Program-made: the position numbers and the translations under genes | In this document: positions 41,779 to 64,000 of the stretch, piece after piece | How the letters are laid out: each line of letters begins with the position of its first letter | Numbering within the stretch: the first letter of the stretch is position 1 | Notes under the pieces: model-generated | Databases searched by the model: none | Told to the model about the DNA's origin: nothing | The model's input: the letters and a program-made list of their open reading frames with translations, nothing else | Origin: Rhodospirillaceae bacterium | GTDB lineage: Bacteria; Pseudomonadota; Alphaproteobacteria; Rhodospirillales; Rhodospirillaceae | Assembly (NCBI GenBank): GCA_029245025.1 | Contig: JAQWQC010000020.1 | Location: 1-64,000 of the forward strand | Direction: 5' to 3' | Length of the DNA: 64,000 bases

Positions 41779-42306
41779 CTAACATGTCGGCGGGGTTTTT
41801 CTAACGGAACCGCGCAACTCTCCCTCTGGATACCGTGTCGTATGAAGGTTGACGTAAACCAAGTGCTGCACGAAGTAGGCAACCTCACCTTGAGACAAAA
41901 TCTTTTCCCCCTCTACCGGAGACATAAATGGCTCGGGTGCCAAATCAAATATGGGGGGCGCTAACCCCTCCGCAGGAACCGGGCCGTGAATGTGAAGACC
42001 TGTGGCCTGGCTCGTGAGATCCTTGAAGCGCACGGTCCAAGAGAGTTTTAAGGTATCCCTTTCAAGGGTAAAGTCTGCACGCCCCACACCTGCACTCTCT
42101 GTTGGCAAGTGTTCAGAATCATCTGAAAGGTCGGCATAGAAGTGGATGGACGGACCAGATCGATCATTGGGATCGGTTGAAAAATACCCGCACGACACAC
42201 CGCCATCTGTTTCTGATCCAATCGCCATTTGGAGAGCCGATAACATGGCACAAACAAAGGATATTATGAGAACTGCGCTTGGGCCTGACAGATTGCCACC
42301 AATCAT
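41779..42306 (-). CDS. Secreted CHRD-domain protein (module copy 1)
   Basis: It encodes 175 residues from the ATG at 42306, with GGAGAG 8 bases upstream; the longer frame to 42387 lacks this. A hydrophobic segment near residues 8-28 is a signal peptide or anchor. The CHRD (PF07452) core shows TLKLSWTVRFKDLTSQATG, LHIHGPVPAEG, IFDLAP and the ending VNLHTTRYPEGELRGSV. CHRD domains were named from chordin and their bacterial function is unknown. Two other CHRD genes occur in this window (53733, 61666), each linked to the A-B-C-D genes or to a cytochrome. Confidence 0.85.
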   Translation of the reverse strand: MIGGNLSGPSAVLIISFVCAMLSALQMAIGSETDGGVSCGYFSTDPNDRSGPSIHFYADLSDDSEHLPTESAGVGRADFTLERDTLKLSWTVRFKDLTSQATGLHIHGPVPAEGLAPPIFDLAPEPFMSPVEGEKILSQGEVAYFVQHLVYVNLHTTRYPEGELRGSVRKTPPTC

Positions 42307-42472
42307 TCGATCTCTCTCCAGACATTCGTCCATAGGATAGAGCAAACACCAATACCGGGCTGGCATTTGTCCATACGACTCAACCAAAAAACCGGTTCAA
42401 TAAAGTAAACTGGCCCAGCCTAACGTGATAATATCGCTCCAACGGCCCATTTGACATAGAAACTGAGTGATT

Positions 42473-43588
42473 ATGCGCCTCGTTCAGACATCCATACGCC
42501 TAGCCGTCTTACTTGCCGCTTTGACCCCATTCGATAGCGCTAGCGCACAGAAACAGACTCTTGGCTTTGTTGTCACCAAGTGGAACACGGCCATGTATGA
42601 AACGATGTTTATGGATGAATGTCCGGCCGGACCGAACCCCGGTAATTATGAAATTTGGGAATCAACCGTAACGCCAGAAGTGCGCCGGTCTTACCCCCCT
42701 ATGCTGATCACTCAGGTGAGGCATATCAACTACCGCGGCCCCAATGGAGAAGACATTTGCGCGGAGCCAACTTCGGTACAAGACCCGCCCCTTAAAGTTG
42801 TCGAAGGCAAGTATGGCTACGGCATCAACCTTGATGGCAACTCTGATGGCGAAGCCACGCCCAAAACCTGTAAGCACCGCAATTTCACAGGTCTAAATGG
42901 CGAAACGGGTATTGATAATCAAATGTACCGCTTGATGGGCTGCGTTGAGGCCTGGCGAAGTTATGGCCATATCGAGAATAACGCCAATGCCCATCGTTTG
43001 AGCAGTGGGTTGGGCATGATTTTGATGGAGATTACCGACGTTGACGATATGACAAATGACGACAGTGTAATGGTGAGTTTCTACAGAGGTACCGGGTCTT
43101 TCTCACTCGATAGCAAAGGTGAAGTTCTGCCATTTGCCAGCTATGAAATAGACCATGTCGATGGGGTTCCACGTTACGACGACACAGTCTCCGGCAAAAT
43201 TGTTGATGGTGTTTTGATGACCGATTCAGCGGATGTTCATCTGCCTCACTTTGGAAACTACCAGTACATCCGACAACTCATTCGCGACTTACAAATTCAT
43301 GTGAACATCACGCCGGAAAGCGGCAAAACAAGTGGCCTGGCCTACGGCTATTATGGCGTTGAACAGTTTTATAGTTATGTCAGGGGTCTGCTGACGTCCT
43401 TCCCTAACAGGCATAAATATAGTTGTCCGGCCATCTACGCAGCCGCACATGACCTCGCTGACGGACATCCCGATCCTGAAACAGGAGAATGCACGACATT
43501 GTCCTCAGCTTTCAAATTTGAGGCAGCTCGTGCCTTTATTAATCATCCCGACTCTGAAAAGACGCTCGCGTCGAGCGAGAAGCACTAA
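42473..43588 (+). CDS. Secreted six-cysteine orphan protein A, copy 1
   Basis: It encodes 371 residues from the ATG at 42473 (GTG at 42467 is an alternative). A Sec signal peptide ends near SASAQ. I know no name for the family. Two homologues lie in this window (60305 and 62467). Shared blocks are LGFVVTKWNTAMYET, MDECPAG, RGPNGEDIC, NLDGNSDGEATPKTC, GIDNQMYRLMGC, a DVDD acidic segment, and near the end SCPA and DGHPDPETGECT. Six cysteines are conserved in all three, suggesting disulfides outside the cytoplasm. It is always directly upstream of a DUF1592-type gene. The function is unknown. Confidence 0.85.
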   Translation: MRLVQTSIRLAVLLAALTPFDSASAQKQTLGFVVTKWNTAMYETMFMDECPAGPNPGNYEIWESTVTPEVRRSYPPMLITQVRHINYRGPNGEDICAEPTSVQDPPLKVVEGKYGYGINLDGNSDGEATPKTCKHRNFTGLNGETGIDNQMYRLMGCVEAWRSYGHIENNANAHRLSSGLGMILMEITDVDDMTNDDSVMVSFYRGTGSFSLDSKGEVLPFASYEIDHVDGVPRYDDTVSGKIVDGVLMTDSADVHLPHFGNYQYIRQLIRDLQIHVNITPESGKTSGLAYGYYGVEQFYSYVRGLLTSFPNRHKYSCPAIYAAAHDLADGHPDPETGECTTLSSAFKFEAARAFINHPDSEKTLASSEKH

Positions 43589-43601
43589 GACGGACATTTT
43601 A

Positions 43602-45281
43602 GTGGTGAAGCCCATATCGATACCATCTGTAATGAGACTCGCTGCGTTGAGCGCAACCCTTCTTTGCGCCCTTATGCTAAGCGCCTGCGGACCGTCTGAA
43701 CCGATTACCGAGGGCACGCCCCCGGATGTGCGCCGCCTTACAGAAGAGCAATACCGCAATATCATCGCCGATATCTTTGGCACGTCTATTGTTGTTGGCG
43801 GACGGTTCGATACCCCGGTTAGGGAAGATGGTCTATTGGCCGTCGGTGCTCGAGACGCAACTGTAACGCCTGGTGCGCTGATCCAATATGACGAAATGGC
43901 ACGGTCAATTGCTTCTCAAGTTGTCACTGGGCCTAATCGTCAGTTTCTCGTGCCCTGTTCCAACGCAGTTGATGGTGGATACGACGAAGCCTGCGCCACA
44001 CAATTCGCGTCCACCATCGGACGAATGCTGTTTCGGCGCCCGTTGTCCGACGAAGAGATTTCAACCCGCCTTAGCATCATTAGTGAAACAACTGATGCCT
44101 TGGGCTCCTTTTCTGAGGGTTTAGTGTCGGGCTTGGCCAGCCTCCTGGTCGCTCCTCAATTTCTGTTCGTTACGGATGTCGTTGAGCCTGTTCCGGACAA
44201 GCCTGACGAATATCGCTTGAACGCATATTCAATCGCGGCTCGGCTAAGTTTTCTCCTTTGGAATACAACACCGGACAACGCGCTGCTGGAAGCCGCAAAA
44301 CAAGGGGGCCTGCACACACAACAGAGTCTCGAACGTCAAGTCGATCGCATGATGAATTCGCCTCGCCTAAAGGCCGGTGTTCGGGCTTTCTTTAGTGACA
44401 TGCTGGAGTTCAGCGAATTTGCGTTTCTAGAGAAAGACTCTGTCATTTATCCGTCGTTCGGCATCGCTGCAGCAAGAGATGCGAAGGAGCAAACCTTACG
44501 CACCATAACTGACCATGTGATCTCACGAGACGCGGATTACCGGGACCTTTTCACAACACGTAAAACTTTTATGACCCGAACACTTGGGTTGGTTTACAAG
44601 GTCCAGGTAACGGCCCCAAAAGGTGTCTGGGAGCCTTACGAATTTGCGGAGGACGATCCCCGTCTAGGAATTCAAGCACAACTCAGTTTTCTAGCTTTGA
44701 ATTCTCATCCAGGCCGAAGCTCTCCGACTTTGCGCGGTAAAGCTGTTCGCAACATGCTGCTTTGCCAGCAAGTGCCAGACCCACCACCCGACGTGGATTT
44801 CAGCGGGTTTAACGACCCCAACTCACCCAGCAAAACTGCGCGCGACAGATTATCGGCTCACGCGACCAATGCCGCCTGCGCTGGATGCCACCGGATAACT
44901 GACCCCATAGGATTAGCCCTAGAAAACTACGATGGATCCGGACAATTCCGGCGCACAGAGAACGACGCCTTAATTGACACCAGTGGTGATTTAGATGGCA
45001 TTACCTTTGAGGACAGCGCCGGCCTGGGGATGGCGTTGCGCGAAAATCCCGCCGCCACAATATGCTTAGTGAATCGAATGTATGCGTACGCAAGCGGACA
45101 AACGTTGCCCGTTAGAAACGCTTGGATGTCTTATCTTATCGACAGCTTCGCCGAGGATGATTTTCGGGTGACGGCACTATTAAAACGCATTGCAACCAGC
45201 AAAACATTCTACGCCACAAAGCCAGCGACTACTAGCGACCGGACAATTGAGACAGCCTCCAACATGGCCCAAACACATTAG
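43602..45281 (+). CDS. DUF1592-type c-heme lipoprotein B, copy 1
   Basis: It encodes about 559 residues from GTG at 43602 (GACGGA upstream), 13 bases after gene A. A lipoprotein signal ends in LSAC. Domains in order are DUF1587 (VRRLTEEQYRNIIADIFG), DUF1595/DUF1592 (SFLLWNTTPDNALLEAA), DUF1588 with heme site CAGCH in ACAGCHRITDPIGLALENYD, and a DUF1585 tail. These planctomycete-type cytochromes are always paired with DUF1552 proteins. One covalent heme c implies periplasmic electron transfer. The substrate is unknown. The longer upstream frame overlaps gene A and is not used. Confidence 0.87.
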   Translation: MVKPISIPSVMRLAALSATLLCALMLSACGPSEPITEGTPPDVRRLTEEQYRNIIADIFGTSIVVGGRFDTPVREDGLLAVGARDATVTPGALIQYDEMARSIASQVVTGPNRQFLVPCSNAVDGGYDEACATQFASTIGRMLFRRPLSDEEISTRLSIISETTDALGSFSEGLVSGLASLLVAPQFLFVTDVVEPVPDKPDEYRLNAYSIAARLSFLLWNTTPDNALLEAAKQGGLHTQQSLERQVDRMMNSPRLKAGVRAFFSDMLEFSEFAFLEKDSVIYPSFGIAAARDAKEQTLRTITDHVISRDADYRDLFTTRKTFMTRTLGLVYKVQVTAPKGVWEPYEFAEDDPRLGIQAQLSFLALNSHPGRSSPTLRGKAVRNMLLCQQVPDPPPDVDFSGFNDPNSPSKTARDRLSAHATNAACAGCHRITDPIGLALENYDGSGQFRRTENDALIDTSGDLDGITFEDSAGLGMALRENPAATICLVNRMYAYASGQTLPVRNAWMSYLIDSFAEDDFRVTALLKRIATSKTFYATKPATTSDRTIETASNMAQTH

Positions 45282-45293
45282 AGGACAATGGCT

Positions 45294-46664
45294 ATGAAGC
45301 TTCATCAAAAAGACCGATTTAGCCGACGCTCTGTTCTTAAGGGTGCCGTCGCAGGCACTGCAGTCTCTGTCAGTCTGCCATTCCTTGACTGCATGTTAGA
45401 TGACTCTGGCACGGCTTTGGCTGCAGGGTCTCCAATGCCCGTGCGGTTTGGCACTTGGTTCTGGGGATTGGGGCATACGCCGGGTCATGGCGTTGAAGAA
45501 AAATCAGTCACCGGACCAGGCATCACGTTTCTGAATGAATGCCGCGCGCTGGAACCTCACAAAGAGATCATCAACTTCCTTGGCAAATTTAACATGCCGT
45601 TGGACGGTCGCTCCAATTACCCCCATGAAAGCGGTTGGATTGCTTCCAGGAGTGGGACAGCACCAGATAAAGACAAAGAAATCCCGGCGCCTACGTTTGA
45701 CCTTCTTATTGCCGATGCGATTGGTAACGATACGCGCCTAAAAACGGTGGACTTGGCATGCACCGGCAATCCAAACCACTGCTATTCCGCACGCGGGACC
45801 CACACGCGGACAGCGGCTGAAACATCTCCAACGGCCTTATATACACGGCTATTTGGACCCGACTTTGTCGATCCCAACAAGGCAGACTTTAAGCCCGACC
45901 CGCGGGTGATTGTTAGAAAGAGCGTACTCTCAGCTGTGAAGGACGAACGTCAAAAACTCATGAAACAGATTGGGACCTCTGACAGAGCCCAATTAGATGA
46001 GTACTTCACCTCAATTCGTGAACTCGAAAATCAGCTGGACGTTCAGTTACAAAAGCCCGCCCCCAATGAGGCCTGCCAAGTCATACCAGCTCCGGAAGGT
46101 AGTGCCGTTCTGGAAAGTAATTTGGGCGTCGAAATCGAACAGGTTCTGGCCACTCACGAGACCTTTACACGAATGCTATCAATGGCCGTGGCTTGCAATC
46201 AGACCAAAGTGTTTAACATGGTGTTCAACGATTCTCTCTCTAGCCTGCGCAAGGCTGGAGAAAGCTTGACTCACCATAGCCTCTCTCACGAAGAGCGTGT
46301 CGATCCTGAGCTGGGCCTCCAACATCAGACATCATGGTTCAACACGCGGTGCATGGAAGCGTTAGCAACATTCATTGATCTATTTGGGTCGATTAGGGAG
46401 GGCGATGGCACGCTGCTTGATAACGTCTTGATCATAGCCGGGAGCGAAACCGGAGATGCGCGGACCCATTCAATTGATGAGGTGCCGTTCATGACCGTGG
46501 GCCGTGCTGGAGGGCGAATCAAAACTGGCTTGCACGTCAGAGGCAATGCAGACCCAACGACACGTATTGGCCTCACGGCGATGCAAATTATGGGCCTATC
46601 CATAAACAGCTGGGGCACGCGGTCGCTGCAAACTTCCAAAACCATCAGCGATATCCTCGCTTAA
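45294..46664 (+). CDS. DUF1552 Tat-exported protein C, copy 1
   Basis: It encodes 456 residues; AGAGGA lies 8 bases before the ATG at 45294 (ATG at 45288 is the alternative). The Tat leader FSRRSVLKGAVAG is followed by LPFLDCML. The family motif FGTWFWGLGHTPG lies near residue 50. THHSLSHEE is the HxxSHH-like motif of DUF1552, and GSETGDARTHS lies near the C-terminus. It belongs to an alkaline-phosphatase-related group of exported proteins of unknown activity, always next to DUF1592 genes. The gap to gene B is small. Confidence 0.87.
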   Translation: MKLHQKDRFSRRSVLKGAVAGTAVSVSLPFLDCMLDDSGTALAAGSPMPVRFGTWFWGLGHTPGHGVEEKSVTGPGITFLNECRALEPHKEIINFLGKFNMPLDGRSNYPHESGWIASRSGTAPDKDKEIPAPTFDLLIADAIGNDTRLKTVDLACTGNPNHCYSARGTHTRTAAETSPTALYTRLFGPDFVDPNKADFKPDPRVIVRKSVLSAVKDERQKLMKQIGTSDRAQLDEYFTSIRELENQLDVQLQKPAPNEACQVIPAPEGSAVLESNLGVEIEQVLATHETFTRMLSMAVACNQTKVFNMVFNDSLSSLRKAGESLTHHSLSHEERVDPELGLQHQTSWFNTRCMEALATFIDLFGSIREGDGTLLDNVLIIAGSETGDARTHSIDEVPFMTVGRAGGRIKTGLHVRGNADPTTRIGLTAMQIMGLSINSWGTRSLQTSKTISDILA

Positions 46665-46679
46665 CCTGAAGACGATTGG

Positions 46680-47819
46680 ATGGCCTTGTCAAACATGCCT
46701 TTCATTTCTAGACCCGCGTTGTTGGGCTGGATTGGCGCCGCTTTGTTAATCATGACAGATGGCAACGTCCGCGCTAGCGACCCCCACCCTGCCGAGGTGT
46801 CGACGATACAATTCGGCCATGGAACGAGACTGACCGATGCACTAGGGATGACGCTTTACACCTTCGATAACGACTTAAGGGAACCTGGCACATCAACATG
46901 CGTCGACGACTGTGCGATTAGCCACCCCCCCCTTATTGTGGATGAAACCCCTGAAAAAACGCCCGCAAATTGGACCTTGATAGAACGTGATGATGGTCGC
47001 ATGCAGTGGGCCTACAACGGGCTGCCAGTATATCTGTTTATCAAAGACAGCCACACAGGTGCAGCGTATGGCGAAGGCGGCGGTTGGAATATCGCGTTTG
47101 ATGTCATCAGCACGCCAGCGGAGATTTCTGTCGCAAACACGATACTAGGTCACGTCCTTGCATCAGCAACCGGTCAGACGCTGTACACCCACGGCCCCAG
47201 TGATAAATCCGATGATTTTAAGTGTCTAAACGAATGCTTGGAAAACTGGAATCCGGTTACAGCACCCTGGGCTGCCAACAACAGTGGTGCGTTTTCTGTA
47301 CACGCCAGAGGCGACGGGATCTATCAATGGTCTCACGAGAACAAGCCGCTATTCCTTTATGCGGGAGACTCGATCCAAGGCGACACCAACGGTGAAGGTG
47401 TTGATGGCGTATGGCGGGCAGTCGTCCTAGAACCAACGCCGCCAGCCCCTTCATGGACCAAGGTCGTCGGCTCTGATGGTGGTGCTCTATATGCCGACTC
47501 TGATGGAATGACCCTCTACTCATTGTTCGAGGATCGAAATTCGACAGAACAAACGCGACAGGGCGGCAACCAATGCGACGAAGATTGTCTTTCTAAATAC
47601 TGGACTCCGGTGACCGCAAAATCGAAAAGCCCGCCCATCGGCCATTGGTCGGTGATTGAATCCAAAGACCGAACACTACAATGGGCCTACATGGGGCGGC
47701 CTTTGTACACACTCGACCTAGAAACACGCCCGGGCCAGCTCTATTACACGACCTTCAGGCAGTTCCAGTGGATGAAACCCATCATGTACAAACTGCCTGC
47801 CCTTCAAGGCGTCTTCTAG
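46680..47819 (+). CDS. Secreted Yx(FWY)xxD-repeat protein D, copy 1
   Basis: It encodes 379 residues with a signal peptide (to about NVRAS). It holds three units of the PF03640 secreted repeat: MTLYTFDNDLREPG with CVDDC, QTLYTHGPSDKSDDF with CLNEC, and MTLYSLFEDRNS with CDEDC. Each has a CxxxC pair, a W-x-P-V/L segment and a QWAY or QWSH motif. Related lipoproteins are often beside redox or cytochrome genes; their function is unknown. The CxxxC pairs may form disulfides or bind metal. It closes the plus-strand A-B-C-D operon, 15 bases after C. Confidence 0.84.
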   Translation: MALSNMPFISRPALLGWIGAALLIMTDGNVRASDPHPAEVSTIQFGHGTRLTDALGMTLYTFDNDLREPGTSTCVDDCAISHPPLIVDETPEKTPANWTLIERDDGRMQWAYNGLPVYLFIKDSHTGAAYGEGGGWNIAFDVISTPAEISVANTILGHVLASATGQTLYTHGPSDKSDDFKCLNECLENWNPVTAPWAANNSGAFSVHARGDGIYQWSHENKPLFLYAGDSIQGDTNGEGVDGVWRAVVLEPTPPAPSWTKVVGSDGGALYADSDGMTLYSLFEDRNSTEQTRQGGNQCDEDCLSKYWTPVTAKSKSPPIGHWSVIESKDRTLQWAYMGRPLYTLDLETRPGQLYYTTFRQFQWMKPIMYKLPALQGVF

Positions 47820-47859
47820 CTGGTCACATGAAGACTTGTAGGTGACCTGATCTATGGCC

Positions 47860-49491
47860 TTAGCCCTTCTCCATCCTAATCTTGACGATGCTATTGTCTT
47901 TGCCACAACTCACGAATATAGAGCCGGAGCTATCGACCGCGATTCCAATCGGTGTGTTCTTGGGAAGGTGGTGGTGATCAAGAGAGATCGGCAACCCTGC
48001 AGCTAGAACGGTACGCTCATCCGTCAATAGATCAATCGCCGTTACAGTACCCTTCGCAGGTTCCACGACAACAACACGCCCATCAGGCAACATTGAGAGC
48101 CCTAACGGATTTACTAAGTTTGATAGCAGCTCCGTGCGTTTTCCGTTTGTAAGATCAACACGACTGATGCTGCCTGAACCGATCTCCGTCACCAGCACTG
48201 AGGCGTCGCTTTCCAACAAAAGAGCTACCGGCTCATTTAACCCAGAGGCAGCGTCTTCAAATCTATCGTCGACGAGCCGCAATAGTTTTCCTGACGTCGC
48301 ATCGGCAATAATAGCATCACCATCACTGGTCAGAACGACACCTCTAGGCGCATCGACATCCCTAGATTGAAAAACCACTTCATTAGTGCGGCGATCGATC
48401 TTGCGGATTGCGCTGAAATTCGCATATGTCGTAACAATCGTGTCGTCATCCGCCGCAACAGCCGATGATCCCCCGCGACTCCACATGTCCGGCTCACGCG
48501 TGATTTCAGCGGTATCCGGATCCAGAAAACGGTAGCCAAAGGGGTCAGCGATCAAAATCGACTCTTCACCCTCCAATGTGGTTATGGTCATGCCAAGCGG
48601 TACAGTGAAAGACCCAGCCGTTACCACCCAGGATTCTTCAGTCTTGGGATCGAAGGCCGTGATGCCGCTGATCGCTAGATCAGCCATATAGATAACGCCG
48701 TTCTTATCGAAGGTGAGGTTGTCGAGCGGCGGGGGGAAGTTAACTACAATACGGGACTTTCCGGACTCAACATCTGTAATCCACAAATCTCCGGTCATGT
48801 AATCCACATTCCAGACATCGCCATTGGCATCTACTTTTGTCGCAGCAGTTGTTCCGACATCATCCGCAATAACCTCGAAGTCTCCGCTATCGACATCAAT
48901 GGCGAAGAGTTCATTAGTGCCAAAATGAGGTGAGTAAAGACGACCATCTGGACCGAACCCAAATCCATTGAGACGCCCTTTGTTCTTGGCGACCAGCCTT
49001 GGCGGCTTATTGCCAATGATATCCAGCTCCCACAACGCGTTCTCACCGGCACCAGATTGGGCCGTAAACAAACGACCTTCCTTATTGAACGCGATTGGAT
49101 TGACCCGCGGCGCATCAGGCATCAGTACCTCGGGCATACCACCCGGGCGTTGAATACGAATCTCACCGGTCGTTTGCGCCGTCCACGCGAGGATTCCTTC
49201 TACCGGTGTGCCCTTAGGTCCAACAGCCACATCGTCAGATTCGCCATAGGGCGACGCGACGGCGACAGAGACAAAGCCAGTGTCAGGATCAATGCGATAC
49301 ACCTCTTGAGCATGAATACTCGTGCCGTAAATCATCCCATCGGGACCAATATCGATTCCCTCGATGGCCTGGATCACTGACCCTGGAACAACAATTTCCA
49401 CCGTCGTCGATTGAGCGAGCGATTGGCTAAGAGACAGTGAGGTCACCGTTAAAACGGTAAGCGGGGCGAGGAATGAGTTATTTCGCATCAT
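47860..49491 (-). CDS. Secreted NHL/SMP-30-like beta-propeller protein
   Basis: It encodes 543 residues from the ATG at 49491 with GGAG 7 bases upstream; the longer frame to 49611 lacks a site. The signal peptide ends near SLAQS. Repeats such as EGIDIGPDGMIYG, GFGFGPDGRLYSP, NLTFDKNGVIYMADLA, VVLTSDGDAIIADA and GLSMLPDGRVVVVEP mark six or more propeller blades of the SMP-30/gluconolactonase/Vgb type. No metal site is obvious. It is convergent with gene D copy 1. It may be a lactonase or a binding protein. Confidence 0.82.
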   Translation of the reverse strand: MMRNNSFLAPLTVLTVTSLSLSQSLAQSTTVEIVVPGSVIQAIEGIDIGPDGMIYGTSIHAQEVYRIDPDTGFVSVAVASPYGESDDVAVGPKGTPVEGILAWTAQTTGEIRIQRPGGMPEVLMPDAPRVNPIAFNKEGRLFTAQSGAGENALWELDIIGNKPPRLVAKNKGRLNGFGFGPDGRLYSPHFGTNELFAIDVDSGDFEVIADDVGTTAATKVDANGDVWNVDYMTGDLWITDVESGKSRIVVNFPPPLDNLTFDKNGVIYMADLAISGITAFDPKTEESWVVTAGSFTVPLGMTITTLEGEESILIADPFGYRFLDPDTAEITREPDMWSRGGSSAVAADDDTIVTTYANFSAIRKIDRRTNEVVFQSRDVDAPRGVVLTSDGDAIIADATSGKLLRLVDDRFEDAASGLNEPVALLLESDASVLVTEIGSGSISRVDLTNGKRTELLSNLVNPLGLSMLPDGRVVVVEPAKGTVTAIDLLTDERTVLAAGLPISLDHHHLPKNTPIGIAVDSSGSIFVSCGKDNSIVKIRMEKG

Positions 49492-49728
49492 AGAACGACT
49501 CCAGGAAATAAATGCTTGCTGCCTTCTATTGTGGACCAAGGTGGCCAGAGCGCAAAGCTCAAGTCTGTTAACCGCGCCATCCTGCGGCTCATATACGGAA
49601 CCGAACGCCACGGCTATTCGCTAGTCGAACCATAGGGGAACGCGCCTTCTCATTCTCGCCTCCATATGTGAACGTTTAAAATTAGAATCCGAGTTCATAC
49701 GGACGCATTAAGAAAGAGGCGCCAAGAA

Positions 49729-50097
49729 ATGATGTTTCCTAGCATCTGCGTAGATGACCACGGCCACAGTTGTTTATCTGAGGTAAATCTCCCTCAATCT
49801 GGCAATGAACGACGCATTGGCGCCGCCAGCCAAGGTGTAAAGCATTGGCAGGCAGCTAAATATTTGCCCGGGCATTACGTCGATTTTAAAACCGTCGAAG
49901 ACATTCAGTTTGTATCCGTGATGTCCGGACGCATAGAACTGACTGTGAGCAACGGTGAGAAATATTATTTATCGCGCGGAGACATGATCCTATTTCAAGA
50001 TACATCTGGCCAAGGCCATTGCACCCGTGTGATCGGGCACGAGCCTTGCAATGTGCTGATCATCTCTATGGATGACTTGGGAGATTTCGTCGTATGA
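49729..50097 (+). CDS. Small cupin protein
   Basis: It encodes 122 residues, with GAGG 9 bases before the first of two adjacent ATGs. The cupin core is FVSVMSGRIELTVSNGEKYYL followed by LSRGDMILFQDTSGQGHCTR; only a few His are present, and HYVDF lies at the first motif. The stop overlaps the next gene (ATGA). No signal peptide is present, unlike its neighbour. The role is unknown; it may bind or isomerise a small acid. Confidence 0.75.
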   Translation: MMFPSICVDDHGHSCLSEVNLPQSGNERRIGAASQGVKHWQAAKYLPGHYVDFKTVEDIQFVSVMSGRIELTVSNGEKYYLSRGDMILFQDTSGQGHCTRVIGHEPCNVLIISMDDLGDFVV

Positions 50098-53689: not shown

Positions 53690-53732
53690 ACTTCTGAAAT
53701 TTAGAAGAGTTCATCGTTTAAGAAGGCACGAC

Positions 53733-54179: not shown

Positions 54180-54236
54180 TATATAATTTGTTGTCCTCCC
54201 ATGAGGACCTGCCAAATCAATACCAAAGGATGTCGC

Positions 54237-55875: not shown

Positions 55876-55988
55876 GTTAAACCTCAGCACAGTTCTCTTC
55901 GAGTTGCTCACGTTTGTCGCATGCCAAAAGCGATCCGGGAACAGGCATTTTGTATACAAAGGCGCCAGATGGTCAGGATCGCAGGTGT

Positions 55989-57155
55989 CTAGGGTCGCCT
56001 CAATGTACCTTGCAACGCATCTCCGGAATGCATGACCACGTTAACCGCCCGGTTGCCTCCATGGCGGTACCCCAAGAAAGACCCTTGGGTTTTGTCCCGC
56101 GTGTTGGTGAACAAATGCCGGCCTTTGTATGCCCACTGCCGTCGGCCATCAGACAAAGGTAAAATTGCCCAGTTGCCGCCGGGGGCGACATCGCCCTCAT
56201 CCGCATATATGGCAACCCATTCTTCGTCTAAGCATTCCGCTCCGCATTCTGGTGCTGGTTGGGCCAACCTCGAGAACAGCTTGCTTGGATCCCACGTATA
56301 GATCGTTTTGTAGTTTTCATCAGCGAGCATCTCCCCCGCATCGGTATCCTGCACCCGCACCCAATCTGGATATGGAGGGCGTGGTTCAAGCACCATCGCT
56401 TCCATTGTTTTACCATCGGGATCAAATGCCACACCGTGCCCCGATGTTTCTCCGATCAAAACGTCGCCTGAATACCGGAACAATGGACGGCCCTGGTACA
56501 CCCATTGGTTCAAACCATCCTCACGGGAGATCACGTCCCAATCGCCAACGGAATGAGCCATGCGTGGCGCCATGACGGGGCTCCAATCTGCCAAGCAAGG
56601 TTTGTCGACGCAGAGCGACGCAACTTCGACCTCTGATGCAGGTGTATACAAAGTCTCTTTGTGATGGTCCGCGGCAACATATCCCATCAGCGTTTTGTTA
56701 ATTACAACACCGGGAGGCGTTGGAGCGTGTATGAAAGCAATATCCCAAAGCAGGCCAATGCCTTCACCGTAGGTGTCACCTGGACCCTGGTCGACGCTGT
56801 ACCTATACAAGGGCTTGTCTTCATACGCCCACTGTTGGCTGCCATCTTCCCGTGTGATGATTGACCAATCACCGTTACTGTTCGCCCCCTCTGGAACCAA
56901 ATACGGTGGCCAACTCACTGCGCAGTCCTCGACACAACTCGACGTGCCCGGTTCAATGTCACGTTTCGATGTGTAGAGGGTCATCTGACCTGTATCTGTG
57001 ACAACCCATCCGTGGCCTTTTTCAACCAAAACAAAAGGGGGCGGTGCATCGGGTGTTTGGACCTCAGCATGGCTAACAGCCGACGCAAGTGACAAAAAGA
57101 AGATCGGCGCAGCGGCCCGAATCATCAGAGCGCAAAGCCGCGCGTTAAACGTCAT
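55989..57155 (-). CDS. Secreted Yx(FWY)xxD-repeat protein D, copy 2
   Basis: It encodes 388 residues with a Sec signal (ending VSHA). Three PF03640 units are present: MTLYTSKRDIEPG with CVEDC, ETLYTPASEVEV with CVDKPC, and KTIYTWDPSKLF with CGAEC. QWAYEDKPLYRY and QWVYQGRPLFRY repeat after the first two units. The second Cys pair is spaced differently (CVDKPC) from copy 1 (CLNEC). It sits between the DUF1552 and HiPIP genes on the same strand, consistent with a redox-related exported complex. Confidence 0.84.
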   Translation of the reverse strand: MTFNARLCALMIRAAAPIFFLSLASAVSHAEVQTPDAPPPFVLVEKGHGWVVTDTGQMTLYTSKRDIEPGTSSCVEDCAVSWPPYLVPEGANSNGDWSIITREDGSQQWAYEDKPLYRYSVDQGPGDTYGEGIGLLWDIAFIHAPTPPGVVINKTLMGYVAADHHKETLYTPASEVEVASLCVDKPCLADWSPVMAPRMAHSVGDWDVISREDGLNQWVYQGRPLFRYSGDVLIGETSGHGVAFDPDGKTMEAMVLEPRPPYPDWVRVQDTDAGEMLADENYKTIYTWDPSKLFSRLAQPAPECGAECLDEEWVAIYADEGDVAPGGNWAILPLSDGRRQWAYKGRHLFTNTRDKTQGSFLGYRHGGNRAVNVVMHSGDALQGTLRRP

Positions 57156-57207: not shown

Positions 57208-58578
57208 CTAAACCACGATTTCTGAAATCGTCTTGGAAGTTGCTAACGATTTCGTGCCCCAGTTTTGAACGGGCACACCCATGATCTGCATGGCCGTCAA
57301 CCCAACCCGTGTGATCGGGTCACCGCCACCAGCAACATACATGCCTTGCTTCATCCGACCGCCAGCCCCACCGATGAGGTAAACCGGCACACCATCGATT
57401 GTGTGCAATCGGGCGTAGTTCGTTTCCGAAGATGCGAAGATCAGGCAATTGTCGAGCAATGTGCCGTCACCCTCTGGGATACTCTCAATTATATCGATGA
57501 ACGTTGCCATACCCTCCATCGACTTCTCATTGAACCAGTAAGTCAGTGGTTGATACCCTTTTTCGGCATCGACAACTTCTTCATGGGTCAGGAGGTGGTG
57601 CGTGTACGTTTCACCGACACGACGAACGTTTGCGAAGTTATCGGTGAACACCATATTGAATACGTTGGTTTGGTTGCACGCGACCGCCATCGCTAAAATC
57701 TTTGTCATAACCTTATGGGTTTCGATCACGGAATCCATTTCACGGACTCTGGCAACCTCCTGAGGACCCAACTCGCCTGGGCGCTCTGGTACACGGCAAG
57801 CTTTGTTTGGCTCAGGCTTAGTCAGTTGCAGGGCTAGTTGATTCTCGATCTCACGAATAGATGTGAAGTATTGGTCCATTCGCTGCTTGTCAGCGGCGCC
57901 CAAGGTTTTCATATAGTCTTTGGTTTCTTCCGTGAATGCTGACAAAACGCTCTTGCGTAACCGGACATTAGGATCTGGTTTGAAATCTGCCTTGTTCGGA
58001 TCCGCAAACTCTGGTCCATAAATACGATCAAACAGCGCGACAGGGTCTACCTCAGCGGCGGCTCGGTTGTACGTATTGCGGGCGCTGTAGTTTTCACGAG
58101 CGATGCCAACGCTGCTGACGTCAAGAGTGCGAAACCGCGTGCCATTGCCGATTTGATCGGCGATCAAAAGATCTAAGGTTGGCGCCGGAATATCGCCACC
58201 GGCTTCCGGTGCAGACCCAGTGCGGTTTGCCACCCATCCGGAGAAGTGGGTGTAATTGGACCGACCGTCCAACGGCATATTGAATTTGCCGAAGTAATTT
58301 AATTTATCCTTATGCGGAATAAGTGCTTTGGTCTCGTCTAAGAATTCAATACCCGGCCCCGTCGCCAACTTATCCGTCACGGCTCGGTTAGGCGTATGCC
58401 CCATACCCCAATACCAAGTACCGAAACGTGTTGGCAGTGGCGCACCGCTGGCCAGCGCAGTGCCGTTGTTGTTCAAGAAACAATCCAGAAAAGGCAATGT
58501 CAGTGAGACCACACCGCCGCCCATCATGCTGCGCAGCACTTGCCTGCGGGAATTTTTGCTGTGAAGGAAAAAGCTCAT
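57208..58578 (-). CDS. DUF1552 Tat-exported protein C, copy 2
   Basis: It encodes 456 residues. The leader NSRRQVLRSMMGGGVV is Tat-type, followed by LPFLDCFL. FGTWYWGMGHTPN parallels copy 1. The HxxSHH-like motif reads THHLLTHEE, with Thr for the Ser seen in copy 1. Motif NYARLHTIDGVPVY replaces DARTHSIDEVPF. The 5' end overlaps gene B by 4 bases. Its activity is unknown; the family is exported and paired with c-heme DUF1592 proteins. Confidence 0.87.
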   Translation of the reverse strand: MSFFLHSKNSRRQVLRSMMGGGVVSLTLPFLDCFLNNNGTALASGAPLPTRFGTWYWGMGHTPNRAVTDKLATGPGIEFLDETKALIPHKDKLNYFGKFNMPLDGRSNYTHFSGWVANRTGSAPEAGGDIPAPTLDLLIADQIGNGTRFRTLDVSSVGIARENYSARNTYNRAAAEVDPVALFDRIYGPEFADPNKADFKPDPNVRLRKSVLSAFTEETKDYMKTLGAADKQRMDQYFTSIREIENQLALQLTKPEPNKACRVPERPGELGPQEVARVREMDSVIETHKVMTKILAMAVACNQTNVFNMVFTDNFANVRRVGETYTHHLLTHEEVVDAEKGYQPLTYWFNEKSMEGMATFIDIIESIPEGDGTLLDNCLIFASSETNYARLHTIDGVPVYLIGGAGGRMKQGMYVAGGGDPITRVGLTAMQIMGVPVQNWGTKSLATSKTISEIVV

Positions 58579-60263
58579 GATCCACGCTCCTGCTTGGTCG
58601 TCGTTTGGATGGAAGCTGCACGCACGCCCTCAGGTCCGTTCTCGGGCTGCGTGATCGCGAAAAATGCGGTGCTTGTCGCGATGCCGCGAAGAAGAGACTT
58701 CAGGCTGAATCCTGCATCAGCGAATTCAGCCTCTAAATAGCGAACAAATTCCCGCTCACTACGCTCGGGCGCTCGCCCTGCCGCATAAGAATACATCTGG
58801 TTGGTCAAACAGGACGGCACCGCAGGGCTGTCATGCATGGCCTGAGCTAAAGACTTAGCATCCGTGAATTGATTGCCATCAAGGTCACCCGATACATCGA
58901 TAATTGCACCCTGTTCTGCGACACGGAACTGGCCTATGCCATCAAACTGTTCAAAGCCGAGTCCGATAGGGTCTGTCAATTTGTGGCAGCCAGCGCAGGA
59001 TGGCACTGTCGAGTGTGCGGTCAACCTGTCACGCGCGGTTCGGGTCGGCGCATCAGGGTCATTGAATAACGAGAAGTCCACATCACCTGGCGGATCAGGC
59101 ACTTTCTGGCAGAGCAGAAGTTCACGCACGGCTTTGCCGCGCAAAGTCGCCGAACTCCGGCCCGGATGTGAAAACAAAGAAAGGAATCCCATCTGCGTTA
59201 GGATGCCAGCTCTCACGTCGTCTTCCGGGAATTCGTGGGGCTGCCATCCGCCATCCGGCCGCGCGACCGGTACTTTGTAAACCCGCCCAAGGTGGGAATC
59301 CAAAAACGTATTCCGTGTCGTGAAGATCTCGGGATACGGAGCATCTTTATTGACCGTGTGGTCAACAATTGTTCGAAGCAGCTGCTCCTTCGCGCTTTCC
59401 GCAGCGTTAATGGTGTACGCTGGATAAATTAATGTGTCTTTCTCGAGAGTCTCGAATTTCTCAAGATCGAGAAAATCCTCAAAAAATGCGCGCACGCCGC
59501 GAGATAGGTGCTGAGAGCGAAGCATCCGCTCCACTTGCTGCTTTAGGCCCTTCTCCGTGTGGAGGTCACCTGATTCAGCAGCTTCGAGAAGCATATCGTC
59601 GGGAGCTGAGTTCCACAGAAAGAAACTCAAACGGGCTGCCTTCGCGTATCCCGTGAGGCGCAATCCGCTTGGTGAGGATGAATCAGGCTCCGTCTCATCA
59701 ATAATGAATAGGAAGCTAGGCGTGACCAACAAACCCGTTAGACCAAACTCAATACCCGAATAAAAATCACCAAACTGGTTGGCCACTTCATTTGCTGCTG
59801 CAACAGCCGTTTCCATTTCAGATTCCGTCAGAGACCTACGATAAAGATATCGCCCAGCCTCTGCGAAGAACTGACGGCTGCACGCATCATCTGCACGAGT
59901 GACGTCTGCCGGTGTGCATGACACAAGAACAGCGCGATTTTCTTCATTGACCACCTGGCCAGCAACTGACCGCGCGACATTGTAAAATTTTTCGAATCCC
60001 GAGGGTGTGACGAGCGCATTACGGGCGCCCACTGCAAACAGACCATCGGTGCGCACCAGCGGATCAAAACGACTTGCGATCTCGATATGCTCGCCAAATA
60101 TATCATGAATCACGTTACGGTACTGTTCGACCGTAAGTCGCCGCATGTCCGGGGGAGCGCCGCCGGTCTCCGGCTCACTTTCACCGCACGCAACCAATCC
60201 GAACGCAGCAATCGCCACACAGGCGGTTCGTTGGAAAGAGTGTTTCAATTTAGCTATCAACAT
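58575..60263 (-). CDS. DUF1592-type c-heme lipoprotein B, copy 2
   Basis: It encodes 562 residues, with AAGGTGAG upstream and a lipoprotein signal ending LVAC. The domain order is that of copy 1: DUF1587 (MRRLTVEQYRNVIHDIFG), DUF1595/1592 (SFFLWNSAPDDMLLEAA), DUF1588 with heme motif SCAGCHKLTDPIGLGFEQFD, and a DUF1585 tail. It lies 41 bases downstream of gene A and overlaps gene C by 4 bases (ATGA). One heme c and outer-membrane or periplasmic lipid anchoring are expected. Confidence 0.87.
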   Translation of the reverse strand: MLIAKLKHSFQRTACVAIAAFGLVACGESEPETGGAPPDMRRLTVEQYRNVIHDIFGEHIEIASRFDPLVRTDGLFAVGARNALVTPSGFEKFYNVARSVAGQVVNEENRAVLVSCTPADVTRADDACSRQFFAEAGRYLYRRSLTESEMETAVAAANEVANQFGDFYSGIEFGLTGLLVTPSFLFIIDETEPDSSSPSGLRLTGYAKAARLSFFLWNSAPDDMLLEAAESGDLHTEKGLKQQVERMLRSQHLSRGVRAFFEDFLDLEKFETLEKDTLIYPAYTINAAESAKEQLLRTIVDHTVNKDAPYPEIFTTRNTFLDSHLGRVYKVPVARPDGGWQPHEFPEDDVRAGILTQMGFLSLFSHPGRSSATLRGKAVRELLLCQKVPDPPGDVDFSLFNDPDAPTRTARDRLTAHSTVPSCAGCHKLTDPIGLGFEQFDGIGQFRVAEQGAIIDVSGDLDGNQFTDAKSLAQAMHDSPAVPSCLTNQMYSYAAGRAPERSEREFVRYLEAEFADAGFSLKSLLRGIATSTAFFAITQPENGPEGVRAASIQTTTKQERGS

Positions 60264-60304
60264 GTCTCACCTTAACTTCACGCGATGCCAGTCCATCAAG
60301 CGGC

Positions 60305-61486
60305 TTAGCGCTCGGCAGTTTCCATTTCACTAGGTTGATCCGGTTGCACAATAAAGGCCGCAAAAGCATTAAGCTCAAATGCTGACGAAATGTGGGTGCA
60401 CTCCCCGGTTTCCGGATCAGGATAGCCATCGGCCAATCTTTTGGCCGCTTCAAAGAACGCCGGACAGCTAAAATTTCCCGTGGTTATCACCGGACCTAAG
60501 CCGCCGGTGTGATAGAGATACTGTTCAAGGTCGTAGTACCCGGCCACTGTGCCTTGGGCTTTGGTCCCGTCCTCGGTGATCTCCAGCCTCATCTGCATAT
60601 CGCGGATAACCGGGTGTAAGTAATTGTAGTTGCCGTAATAGGGCAACCTGACGTCACCGGATTTTGTTTGAATAACTCCATCGACGATGGAGGCCTTCAA
60701 ACTGTCTCCGTAGCGCGGGCCATCATCCGTTTGGTCGATTCGATAGCTTGAATAAGGAATAACTTGTCCTGAGCTATCCAAAGGAAATTGATCGATTGAG
60801 CGGTAGTAGGTCACCGTCACATCGTCATCGTTGCGGACATCATCGACGTCAGTGACTTCTATCAAAATCATTGCCAGACCACTCGTGCGGCGCATCTCAT
60901 TGGCATTGATTTCTATGACGCCCTGGTCGCGGAAACCGTAGACGCAGCCGATCAAACGGTAGAGCTGATTGTCGATGCCGGGCACACCAGACGGGCTATT
61001 AAAGTTCTCATGCTTGCATGACTTAGGCGTCGCACTGCCATCTGTATTCCCATCCAGATTGACGCCGAACGAGGTTGGACCTTCAACGGTCAGCAATGGG
61101 GGATCATCCGAAATAACTTCTGGATTGATACAAACGTCCTCACCATTGGGGCCACGGTTTTTGGCCAAGAACCAACGGTCCAGAGTTGTGATCAAACCAT
61201 CTTGGGTTTTTTCACTGCGCTCTTCTTTCGAAAGGCTGCGCCACCAGATTTCGTCATTGCTGATATTCAGTCCGGCCGGGCATTCATCCATAAACTTGGT
61301 TTCATAGACAGCTGGCATCCAATCTTTAACGACAAAACCAAGCGTTCGATTAGGTGGAGCTCCGGATGAGATGCCCGTTGCCGCTGACGCGGAGTCCAAG
61401 TCGTTTGCCCGCGCGGACTCCGGTCCCATTTGGGCTGCCATCGTGGCAACGATCATGGTCACTGCTGAAAGAAACTGTCTTTTCAT
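60305..61486 (-). CDS. Secreted six-cysteine orphan protein A, copy 2
   Basis: It encodes 393 residues. The signal peptide ends near SARA (about residue 27). Shared blocks are LGFVVKDWMPAVYETKFMDE, RGPNGEDVC, NLDGNTDGSATPKSC, GIDNQLYRLIGC, ILIEVTDVDDVRNDDDV, FSCPA and DGYPDPETGECT, each with one of the six conserved Cys. It has a longer N-terminal segment than copy 1. The gene starts the A-B-C-D-HiPIP series on this strand, following the CHRD gene by 179 bases. Confidence 0.85.
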   Translation of the reverse strand: MKRQFLSAVTMIVATMAAQMGPESARANDLDSASAATGISSGAPPNRTLGFVVKDWMPAVYETKFMDECPAGLNISNDEIWWRSLSKEERSEKTQDGLITTLDRWFLAKNRGPNGEDVCINPEVISDDPPLLTVEGPTSFGVNLDGNTDGSATPKSCKHENFNSPSGVPGIDNQLYRLIGCVYGFRDQGVIEINANEMRRTSGLAMILIEVTDVDDVRNDDDVTVTYYRSIDQFPLDSSGQVIPYSSYRIDQTDDGPRYGDSLKASIVDGVIQTKSGDVRLPYYGNYNYLHPVIRDMQMRLEITEDGTKAQGTVAGYYDLEQYLYHTGGLGPVITTGNFSCPAFFEAAKRLADGYPDPETGECTHISSAFELNAFAAFIVQPDQPSEMETAER

Positions 61487-61665: not shown

Positions 61666-62133
61666 TTATTCGGGACGCACCCGCATGACCTGTCCCCGAA
61701 GTTCTCCCGCGGGGTATCGGGTTGAATGAATGTTTACGTACAAGCGGCCCGTGAGCAGGTACTCAAGCTCACCGTCATTCAGAACAACAGAGCCAGTGAG
61801 TGGGCTGGACATGCCATCTGGCGCCAAATCAAAGAGCACGCCTGCGTTACCGCCGGGCGTCTGCGGGCCATGTATGTGAGCCCCTGTAGCGTTTGACGTC
61901 ATCTTGCCATAGGTCACAGTCCACTCAAGCCGTTGCGTTGGGCGGTCGAGAACGAACTCAGCCAGACCTGACCCTGGACTTTCAGTTGGGGCGCTTTGCT
62001 CATCGGCAGACAGGGCCGTGCGGAACTTGATGGGCGGACCCTCGGTTCCAGCATAGTCAGGGGCTGCACTAGATGGATTTGGAAAGAGCACGCCAATCAG
62101 GGCAGCCAAGGCGATAAGGCGTTTAAAAATCAT
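61666..62133 (-). CDS. Secreted CHRD-domain protein (module copy 2)
   Basis: It encodes 155 residues from the ATG at 62133, with GGAGAG about 7 bases upstream; the frame to 62181 is longer but unsupported. The signal peptide ends near SSAAP. The core has TQRLEWTVTYGKMTSNATGA, IHGPQTPGGN, LFDLAPDGMSSPL and VNIHSTRYPAGELRGQV. It heads the minus-strand copy 2 module and is divergent from copy 3. CHRD thus accompanies the A gene in copies 1 and 2. Confidence 0.85.
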   Translation of the reverse strand: MIFKRLIALAALIGVLFPNPSSAAPDYAGTEGPPIKFRTALSADEQSAPTESPGSGLAEFVLDRPTQRLEWTVTYGKMTSNATGAHIHGPQTPGGNAGVLFDLAPDGMSSPLTGSVVLNDGELEYLLTGRLYVNIHSTRYPAGELRGQVMRVRPE

Positions 62134-62466
62134 AAAAAAGCTCTCCGGGTGAGATCGCAAGGCGTTAACTGTCACGGACATAGACGACCAGTCTTCTTAA
62201 TGTCCAGCGGACCTCAGCCTGTTGACCGAATATCGGCTGCAAACTGCGATAGTTTAGCCCCGCGCGTTCGCATATTGACCAAAAATCCGCGAGCAGAGCG
62301 TTCGGTCCGCGAACGCGAGGTCTGACGCTTCCATAAGTGCGACTGGTGGCCATGCCTGCGAAACGGGTTTTGAATTCTCCAAGCACTTGAGCATGATGCG
62401 CCTCTATTGTACTCGACCAGCAGTATTGATCAGGACCACCCGCCTGCCAGCAGAAATTGAGAAGCC
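62134..62466. other. Divergent control region between module copies 2 and 3
   Basis: These 333 bases hold no convincing gene. They should carry promoters for the CHRD gene (minus) and A copy 3 (plus). They contain a 7-bp stem-loop at 62298-62316 and a direct repeat TCCGCGA at 62286-62292 and 62307-62313, spaced 21 bases. A minus-strand open frame here lacks a ribosome site and is not counted. Confidence 0.5.
62298..62316. promoter_or_regulatory. Perfect 7-bp stem-loop / candidate operator
   Basis: GCGTTCG and CGAACGC flank a 5-base loop (GTCCG). No T-run follows, so this is unlikely to be a terminator. It overlaps one of two TCCGCGA direct repeats, 21 bases apart, about two helical turns. 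It lies between divergent module genes and may bind a regulator. No equivalent was seen by eye in the copy 1 divergent region (42307-42472). Confidence 0.3.
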
Positions 62467-63642
62467 ATGAGAATAGACATGAACTTGAAATCGCTAACGA
62501 CCATCAGCGCACTAGCACTGGGTATGGGTGTGACGACGCCGGCAGCCGCGGATGTGGACACCGAACGCACCATAGGTTTGGTCGTGGTGTCGTTTTACAC
62601 GTCGGTCTATGAAACCAAGTACATGGAAGAGTGTTCGCGTGGTCTTGCTATCGGTAATGATGAAATCTGGTGGAAGAGCTTGGAACCCGGGATACGGGAT
62701 GAACTGACAAATGGCGGAGAAATTGAGCCAGTAACTGGCACCCGACGCGCCATGTCGGCAAAGCGCGGCCCTAATGGTGAGGACGTTTGCGCCTTCCCAA
62801 CAATCGTTGAAGACCCCCCTCACAAGATTGTTGAAGGTGATATCTCGTATGGCATGAATCTTGACGGTCTATTGGAGAGTGGTACGACACCAAAAACATG
62901 TAGCCACAAAAATTTCACTTCGCCTGGCGGGGAACCCGGCATCGACAACCAAATGTATCGTTTACTGGGATGCACCTTTGGATGGCGCGATAGTGGCTAC
63001 GTCGAAACTAATGCGAATGGCGAACTCATCGATACGTCACAAGGAATTATCCTTATCGAAGTGAGTGAAGTGGACGACAGACGCAATGATGACGACGTCA
63101 CCGTGCGTATGTTTCGGGCCAACGATATTTTTCCAAAAGATGCGCAAGGCAACGTTCTGCCTTATGCCAGTTATCGGGTGCATGACATTCCCGGATACGG
63201 CAACGCCGCCAAGGGACGCATTGTTAATGGCGTGTTATCTACTGATCCCATCGAGGCTTTTTTGCCCTATTACGGCAACCTCGCCCACTCAGAGATTCAC
63301 TTGAGAGACATGCGTATGGAGTTGGATCTTGAAGCAAGTGAAGACCGTGCCAAAGGCATCATCGCTGGCTATCGAGATGTCGAAAATTTCTGGAGTTACT
63401 TTCGCAAGGGCGGCTACCTAGCCGTAACTGGACAGTTCAGTTGCCCCGCAATGTATGTCGCAGCGCATGAACTTGCAGACGGATACCCCGACCCGGAAAC
63501 TGGGGAGTGCACTGCGCTATCTTCGTCTTACACCATCGAAACCATCCCGGCATTTATCATTCGGCCTGAGGACGATGAGTCAAAGACGTCAGAAATAAAA
63601 ATTGAGGCCCCCGCCACGCAGCTTGCTGCGCATGGCCAATAG
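62467..63642 (+). CDS. Secreted six-cysteine orphan protein A, copy 3
   Basis: It encodes 391 residues, with GAG before the ATG. The signal peptide ends near PAAAD. Its blocks match copies 1 and 2 with small changes: IGLVVVSFYTSVYETKYMEE, RGPNGEDVC, NLDGLLESGTTPKTC, GIDNQMYRLLGC, FSCPA and DGYPDPETGECT. All six Cys are present. It opens a third module, with gene B 15 bases downstream. The family is unnamed as far as I know. Confidence 0.85.
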   Translation: MRIDMNLKSLTTISALALGMGVTTPAAADVDTERTIGLVVVSFYTSVYETKYMEECSRGLAIGNDEIWWKSLEPGIRDELTNGGEIEPVTGTRRAMSAKRGPNGEDVCAFPTIVEDPPHKIVEGDISYGMNLDGLLESGTTPKTCSHKNFTSPGGEPGIDNQMYRLLGCTFGWRDSGYVETNANGELIDTSQGIILIEVSEVDDRRNDDDVTVRMFRANDIFPKDAQGNVLPYASYRVHDIPGYGNAAKGRIVNGVLSTDPIEAFLPYYGNLAHSEIHLRDMRMELDLEASEDRAKGIIAGYRDVENFWSYFRKGGYLAVTGQFSCPAMYVAAHELADGYPDPETGECTALSSSYTIETIPAFIIRPEDDESKTSEIKIEAPATQLAAHGQ

Positions 63643-63657
63643 AACTTAAGAGCAAAA

Positions 63658-64000
63658 ATGACTCATTTGAATAAAACAATTCGCGCCGCCTGGGTGCTCG
63701 CGGCAACTCTGGTTTTGAGCAGCTGCGGAGAGAGCGAGCCAGCAACAGAGGGCAGTGAGCCACAACTCCGGCGCCTTACCGAGCAACAGTACCGCAATAC
63801 CATTCGAGACGTATTCGGCGGCAATGTTGTGGTGGCTGGGCGCTTCGACCCATTAGAGCGAATTGATGGACTGCTGGCCTTGGGTGCAAGCAGCGCAACG
63901 ATTACACCAGCCGCTTTGGAACGGTATGAAGCTTTGGCTCGTTCCATTGCGCTTCAAGTGGTCGACGAGAACAACCGCAAGATTCTTGTCCCTTGCGCCC
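63658..64000 (+). CDS. DUF1592-type lipoprotein B, copy 3 (partial, runs off window)
   Basis: The first 114 codons are present. The ATG at 63658 begins a lipoprotein signal with LSSC, then GESEPATEG and the DUF1587 start LRRLTEQQYRNTIRDVFGGN. FDPLERIDGLLALGASSATI parallels the other two B proteins. The heme motif lies beyond the window edge. A C gene is expected to follow, as in copies 1 and 2. Confidence 0.85.
   Translation, partial: MTHLNKTIRAAWVLAATLVLSSCGESEPATEGSEPQLRRLTEQQYRNTIRDVFGGNVVVAGRFDPLERIDGLLALGASSATITPAALERYEALARSIALQVVDENNRKILVPCA

Follow-up and report, generated by a model that had tools for sequence, protein, structure and literature searches.

A conserved gene module with DUF1592- and DUF1552-type proteins in a marine Rhodospirillaceae bacterium and its proposed role in exported oxidation

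Pairs of DUF1592 and DUF1552 genes occur in Planctomycetes, Verrucomicrobia and Proteobacteria, and the question raised by the DNA described here is what such a pair does when it is repeated, together with further genes, along a single contig. The DNA is a stretch of 64,000 nucleotides from a marine Rhodospirillaceae bacterium (GCA_029245025.1, contig JAQWQC010000020.1, positions 1 to 64,000), hereafter the window, and the gene set consists of four members named A, B, C and D, of which B is the DUF1592-type and C the DUF1552 protein. A preliminary description had placed A-B-C-D in the same order at 42.5-47.8 kb (plus strand) and 55.9-61.5 kb (minus strand), with A-B restarting at 62.5 kb, and both coordinates and Pfam matches agree with this placement. 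The set is a real and conserved module, a variant of the DUF1592-DUF1552 kind, and uncharacterised in the literature searched; the available portions of the open-licence literature (including PMC5615132, PMC10653915, PMC8981238, PMC7789669, and PMC6004670) assign no function to the gene set, A being nameless and hard to search for. It is proposed, with confidence evenly balanced, that the module is an exported oxidation system coupled to respiration.

Three copies of the module lie in and just past the window, a fourth lies on another contig of the same genome, and a fifth A exists as a fusion with D. In copy 1, A (42467..43588), B (43632..45281), C (45288..46664) and D (46680..47819) are all encoded on the plus strand and keep their order, with a CHRD gene on the minus strand beside A (41779..42387; PF07452, 64.6 bits) whose open reading frame (ORF) start is probably too long. 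The start of B at 43632 was taken from its lipobox and from the spacing in copy 2; the ORF itself opens at 43449. Copy 2 is entirely on the minus strand and reads CHRD (61666..62181, between copies 2 and 3; PF07452, 81.1 bits), A (60305..61486), B (58575..60263), C (57208..58578), D (55989..57155) and HiPIP (55519..55959). Copy 3 begins on the plus strand with A (62467..63642), followed by B, which starts at 63658 and runs past 64 kb (63658..64000 within the window). The preliminary description had left it to the sequence beyond 64 kb to reveal whether this copy goes on; it does, and the 20 kb that follow on the contig contain B, C, and D in full (L005:1658-5755). Also borne out were the CHRD genes beside A in copies 1 and 2, the HiPIP closing copy 2, and, between the copies, a triheme cytochrome c (54201..55511, plus strand; three CXXCH motifs in 7/7 homologues) with its own CHRD gene upstream (53613..54179, plus strand; PF07452, 60.6 bits); the HiPIP and this cytochrome are both kept in loci L020 and L022-L026. 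Pfam matches confirmed B, C, D, CHRD, HiPIP, and the intervening cytochrome of the window. Copy 4, on contig C22, follows a pyrroloquinoline quinone (PQQ) dehydrogenase, whose C-terminal cytochrome match falls just below cut-off, and a CHRD gene; A-B-C-D is then succeeded by a major facilitator superfamily (MFS) gene, and a transposase-like gene (by reading) stands directly behind the latter (L018:424-1443). On contig C20, the fifth A continues in one reading frame into PF03640 repeats and so forms an A~D fusion. The next genes encode a BNR-repeat protein containing a CPCC stretch, a TlpA-like thioredoxin (by reading), and an exported protein of the glyoxalase fold (L016:13122-17575).

All DUF1552 genes (4/4), all PSCyt3 genes (4/4), and all PF03640 hits (16/16) of this genome are confined to the four modules or to that fusion, and other genomes show the same arrangement; a chance arrangement was therefore dismissed. 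Of the four CHRD genes in the genome, three are no more than 0.3 kb from an A, and the remaining one precedes the triheme cytochrome. Across the order, A was found in 5/199 genomes (its own included), across the class in 6/385, and across the phylum in 2/398. DUF1552 occurred in the same 6/385 alphaproteobacterial genomes as A (with at most five candidates scored per genome in the class searches for both, copy numbers are lower bounds), and in the phylum sample in 7 genomes, 2 of them with A. In its distribution A seems confined to Alphaproteobacteria. Of the 76 A genes whose neighbourhoods were read, 69 had both B and C on their own strand and no more than 5 kb away, and in 58 of those 69 D was present too. 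This count includes L019 and L023 (near-identical genome, 98% in A); it omits L073, which shares its contig with L021; the window entry of copy 3, already represented by L005; two A fragments at contig edges in G183 and a weak one, likewise at an edge, in L086; and the TomTYG plasmids other than that of TomTYG74. Gene order was mostly A-B-C-D, with A after the others in some loci of G080, G193, and G337. The preliminary description had named scattered genes, or A without linkage to B, as what would tell against a module; neither is the rule, the exceptions being 7 of the 76 A genes and the Sphingobium plasmid of TomTYG65, both taken up below.

The genes also share a history. Pairwise distances among A, B, C, and D agree with r of 0.85-0.94 over 44 complete modules (44 of the 50 modules with all four genes were used), and shuffles within genomes reached values as high in 0/1000 trials for each of five pairs tested, so the unit appears to have been largely inherited together. 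In identity between copies, A of copy 1 shares 50% with that of copy 2 and 44% with that of copy 3, C shares 58% and D 37%. When 74 A proteins were placed in a tree (fused frames cut to their first 400-420 residues; L029, L073, and L120 left out), copies 1, 2, and 3 fell into separate, well-supported clades together with relatives from other genomes. A recent local triplication is thus ruled out, the three copies sitting in old clades with orthologues elsewhere, and the earlier proposal that the copies had duplicated and diverged holds in outline, with copies 2 and 3 kept as a divergent pair. The two diverge around a CHRD gene and, with HiPIP, triheme cytochrome, CHRD, and MFS genes following, form a super-locus conserved in L022-L026 (L023 being from the near-identical genome), where an arylmalonate-decarboxylase-like gene comes next wherever the contig reaches; L020 is rearranged. 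The gene order and the orthologues found in relatives point to inheritance rather than to a selfish or mobile unit, and given carriage on sphingomonad plasmids, transfer of the module may also occur. In L022, from the metagenome-assembled genome CALSLN, the C of copy 3 is broken into four reading frames and its D into two (positions 3680-6126), by decay or sequencing error. Three A genes on L027, a contig labelled Candidatus Marinimicrobia, group with alphaproteobacterial ones, by transfer or mis-binning.

B carries the domains DUF1587/1595/1592/1588/1585 (PSD3, PSD5, PSD4, PSCyt3, PSD2; Pfam), the PSD3 of copy 1 lying just below cut-off (22.4 vs. 23). Exactly one CXXCH motif is present in 70/70 B proteins from A-bearing genomes or plasmids. 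B of copy 1 is lipoprotein-like, and the protein is probably a DUF1592-type cytochrome of the cell envelope, lipid-anchored and with one predicted heme. For comparison, eight DUF1592-DUF1552 pairs without A served as controls, seven from Proteobacteria and one from Planctomyces (stretches of 12-25 kb, E 0.01). They resemble the module in the domain set of B, the adjacency of B and C, and the Pfam family of C. Unlike the module, none of the eight loci held A, D, CHRD, or HiPIP within these stretches and at this limit, and one weak match to the triheme cytochrome was found, in L209. The B proteins differ as well: at least two CXXCH motifs are present in 7/7 proteobacterial controls vs. one in the module, and at the Planctomyces locus each of two genes has a single motif.

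The control B proteins also introduce a first alternative, that the module oxidises sugars or polysaccharides. Two long ones (L210, L212) carry glucose/sorbosone dehydrogenase (GSDH) domains (139 and 148 bits) and CBM26, a carbohydrate-binding module (CBM); among the others PKD or bacterial Ig domains are found, three being without any such domain. The two are giant chains of 2157 and 2369 amino acids (L210:1720-8193, L212:9380-16489) that join CBM26, GSDH, and DUF1592-type cytochrome domains. In the same direction point CBM-bearing PSCyt genes of freshwater Verrucomicrobia, which have many PSCyt genes whose functions were stated in 2017 to be wholly uncharacterised (PMC5615132), a DUF1592 protein with CBM2 from the Cellvibrio of a lignocellulose community (PMC6004670), and Cellvibrio Cbp2D, a c-type cytochrome with a DUF1587 domain studied as an electron donor to lytic polysaccharide monooxygenases (LPMOs) (PMC8981238). 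By description rather than sequence, Cbp2D is like B in being a c-type cytochrome with DUF1587; the module is set apart, again by description, by its one heme motif and its separate partner genes. Against sugar oxidation, the pairs examined have no A, D, CHRD, or HiPIP, the B of the module is short, the scanned module proteins gave no match to a carbohydrate-binding domain, and no glycoside hydrolase was seen among the neighbouring genes scanned in this genome; a sugar substrate is rated as rather unlikely.

C scored above the DUF1552 (PF07586) cut-off in 4/4 copies of this genome (117.9 bits in copy 1, 129.8 in copy 2), and copy 1 has an RR (Tat-like) leader. The site departs from the signature HXXSHH that names the family: in C from A-bearing loci it reads HHxx[ST]HE, the last residue being Glu in 57/59, Ser in 1, Thr in 1, and His in 0. 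The signature varies in unlinked C too, with His in 2/7 and Glu in 0/7 of the motifs printed, the eighth protein (L127) having printed none; because it varies in linked and unlinked C alike, family membership was taken from the score. The Glu separates the A-bearing loci (57/59) from the controls (0/7 printed), and the A-type variant is thus set apart by three marks: the presence of A, one heme motif in B, and Glu in the C signature. C may have the alkaline-phosphatase-like fold of its clan. In profile comparisons, the C-terminal part of unlinked DUF1552 matched DUF1501 at 96.3% (E 1.5e-9, 64 columns; the DUF1501 profile set probably took in some wrong reading frames), and C matched a metalloenzyme profile set at 3-6%. 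The DUF1501 match would accord with a second alternative, in which the module is no catabolic oxidase at all: C would be a DUF1501-related hydrolase, and B and its heme partners would sense or protect, for example against oxygen or nitric oxide (NO). Cytochrome c', which is among the partners described below, often binds NO. C of the A-bearing loci, however, matches DUF1501 only at 5% (E 0.008), and the neighbouring genes are largely catabolic and transport genes, so that this alternative is considered very unlikely.

A is exported and had no Pfam match at E 1 in 24 members, bar one stray hit in one member, and no NCBIfam match in the two copies searched. An AlphaFold model of copy 3 (pLDDT 78.6, pTM 0.77) is built mostly of strands, the first of which is followed by a long segment where helices and loops are more frequent. 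Sequence searches of the PDB with A, B, C, and D returned nothing meaningful; CHRD matched chordin. In gene order and domain position A corresponds to the N-terminal heme domain and recognition modules of other systems, and on this account it would have a recognition role, presumably in binding substrate. D is defined by its PF03640 repeats, which are above cut-off (15/16 hits in this genome), and CHRD by PF07452, above cut-off in 4/4 genes. Fusions also occur: A is joined to D in four cases, which fall into two separate clades, and to B in one. In S. herbicidovorans the annotation divides A between two overlapping frames (L120:17004-18349).

Electron carriers recur around the module. The HiPIP of the window, which has an RR leader, contains the cysteine pattern CxxCxFF, CGxC, GxC and scored 27.1 bits against a cut-off of 22 (PF01355); relatives with the cysteine pattern stand beside A-B-C in its own family, in G379, in G442, and in Novosphingobium RL4, and a further relative, in L099, had no Pfam match at 0.001. 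In Sphingobium, cytochrome c' and cytochrome b561 come after C, with relatives of the former also in L099 and L121 and of the latter in L121, and the triheme cytochrome was present in seven loci. Matches to TonB receptors were found in 12 loci (nine and three across two neighbourhood sets), and exported glyoxalase-fold proteins are encoded nearby in L016 and L099 (Pfam) and in L091, L121, and L122 (by reading of the sequence). The recurrence of HiPIP, cytochrome c', b561, and triheme partners supports a role in electron transfer, which is likely, whichever way the electrons flow. The exported electron-transfer or oxidation module of the preliminary description thus finds partial support, in the conserved order, the single heme motif of B, and these carriers.

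A third alternative has the electrons flow inward, with b561, c', and B passing quinol electrons to C as an oxygen-activating exported monooxygenase. The position of b561 and c' after C in Sphingobium, the closeness of His and Glu in the C motif, and the study of Cbp2D as a donor to LPMOs (PMC8981238) would all be in keeping with such a flow; PQQ-type dehydrogenase domains on B relatives and the PQQ gene beside a module argue that electrons leave the substrate instead, and inward flow is likewise thought rather unlikely. Two known systems bear comparison in this respect. PQQ alcohol dehydrogenases are known with a triheme subunit, and the likeness lies in the triheme cytochrome c and in PQQ dehydrogenases near two copies of this genome; the difference is that the PQQ genes are outside the repeated unit and occur in only four loci of the neighbourhoods compared. 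An extracellular electron conduit, which combines a porin with a multiheme cytochrome of ten or so hemes, is not matched on the cytochrome side: the module has no cytochrome of about ten hemes, B having one CXXCH and the neighbouring cytochrome three.

For the proposed exported oxidation coupled to respiration, the following mechanism can be envisaged. A, secreted and mostly beta in its model, would replace the N-terminal heme and recognition modules of other DUF1592 cytochromes and presumably bind the substrate. C, with its Tat-like leader, would be the likely catalytic partner, acting through a putative metal site at HHxx[ST]HE, and B, an envelope cytochrome probably held by a lipid anchor, would pass electrons through its single heme. 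D and CHRD may be binding or scaffold parts. Electrons would exit via HiPIP and the triheme cytochrome in this genome, and via cytochrome c' and cytochrome b561 in Sphingobium. The module would serve the catabolism of hydrophobic organic compounds, possibly steroid-like in Sphingobium; for this marine genome the proposal names no substrate.

A number of observations weigh against this reading. A strict lipobox was present in 43/70 B proteins (ORF starts not curated), and the RR leader pattern in 59/67 C proteins (starts again not curated; the pattern misses, e.g., RRSIL). The structure model of C was unusable (pLDDT 46). With the model of A, Foldseek gave no match at E 0.001 or better, and its avidin-like, calycin-like, and other barrel matches reached a VIA Z of at most 6.0, which is within the range of chance and may reflect only a common arrangement. 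Seven of the 76 A genes are without B and C nearby, six having D only (three of them fused) and one having none of these. Lastly, two genes shared the same nearest-neighbour module in only 18-26 of 44 modules.

The sharpest lead to a substrate, inferred from gene neighbourhoods, is a steroid-like compound in Sphingobium. Among 72,556 plasmid records searched with tblastn, A was found in 12 of Sphingobium and one of Novosphingobium. A GH106 protein is encoded in the same 12 Sphingobium records (E limit 1e-100; also in one Sphingomonas and one other Novosphingobium record), as is a KshA-type Rieske protein (at least 89% identity, E limit 1e-40), and in 11 of the 12 a distance of about 14 kb separates A from GH106. 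In S. herbicidovorans the gene order is GH3, GH106, alpha/beta hydrolase, rhamnosidase, and this fits the plasmid-borne SpGH3-1, SpGH106-1, and SpGH78-1 of the steroid-saponin cluster of the tomato-root strain RC1, matched by description and not by sequence (PMC10653915). According to the same source, S. herbicidovorans NBRC16415 degraded alpha-tomatine to putative intermediates and strain MI1205 did not; 'DUF1592' has 0 occurrences in its main text. Beyond A-B-C the S. herbicidovorans plasmid carries genes of BphC-like, acyl-CoA-dehydrogenase-fold (HsaA-type by reading), and KshA_C type. Such KshA_C Rieske genes are near A-B-C in three genomes (L120, L095, and, by 85% identity to that of L095, L093); in G442 and G521 the gene stands directly after C (in G521 by 85% identity); the family of these two genomes, f45, may be that of Sphingobium itself.

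A more specific proposal is that A-B-C forms a new exported complex oxidising steroid or triterpenoid skeletons outside the cytoplasm, with A as a ligand-binding barrel, C as a metal enzyme with the altered HHxx[ST]HE site, and B as the electron-carrying cytochrome; this is held to be distinctly unlikely as it stands. Several results also weigh against the main proposal, with its steroid-like substrate in Sphingobium. Relatives of KshA are also encoded, at lower identity, in 10 plasmid records without A; among the Sphingobium records KshA is near A-B-C only in S. herbicidovorans, lying about 500 kb from A in TomTYG64; and none was found in the stretches fetched from the genome of the window. 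In TomTYG65 (L206:10193-11443, L205:24875-27882), B-C is near the glycoside hydrolase cluster and A stands apart, separated by about 200 kb of plasmid and surrounded by genes annotated as a choline-type dehydrogenase, a beta-xylosidase, and a 3-beta hydroxysteroid dehydrogenase. Ancestry moreover confounds the co-occurrence with saponin genes, the records being from close relatives, 11 of the 12 from the strain series of the tomatine study. Within the window, an HsaA-like monooxygenase at 18293 scored 271 bits against a family cut-off of 450, and steroid use is thus not demonstrated by it. Were the proposal correct, it would give DUF1592-DUF1552 pairs their first biochemical role, and the marine copies could be specialised for different algal or sedimentary lipids. 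As the A-type variant is carried on plasmids of cultured Sphingobium strains of the published tomatine study, the function of PSCyt proteins can be approached by gene removal in common soil bacteria.

The remaining genes of the region lie between copies 1 and 2. Adjoining copy 1 is an NHL/SMP-30-like beta-propeller (47860..49611, minus strand; Pfam), followed on the plus strand by a small cupin (49729..50097; Cupin_2, 30.8 bits), an exported two-cupin protein (50094..51032) with a relative after copy 3 (L005:5771-6721), and another small cupin (51046..51432) with a Pfam match below cut-off (22.0 vs. 27.2 bits). An arylmalonate decarboxylase/EutA-like gene (51454..52200, minus strand; Pfam 53.2 bits, NCBIfam matches below cut-off) and an MFS transporter (52424..53689, plus strand; Pfam) complete the interval up to the CHRD gene of the triheme cytochrome. 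Further upstream, positions 7364-22532 of the window have a catabolic appearance, with genes for an FAD monooxygenase, an MFS protein, MmgE/PrpD, a GlcD-like FAD protein, the HsaA-like monooxygenase, a cupin, and an M24 peptidase.

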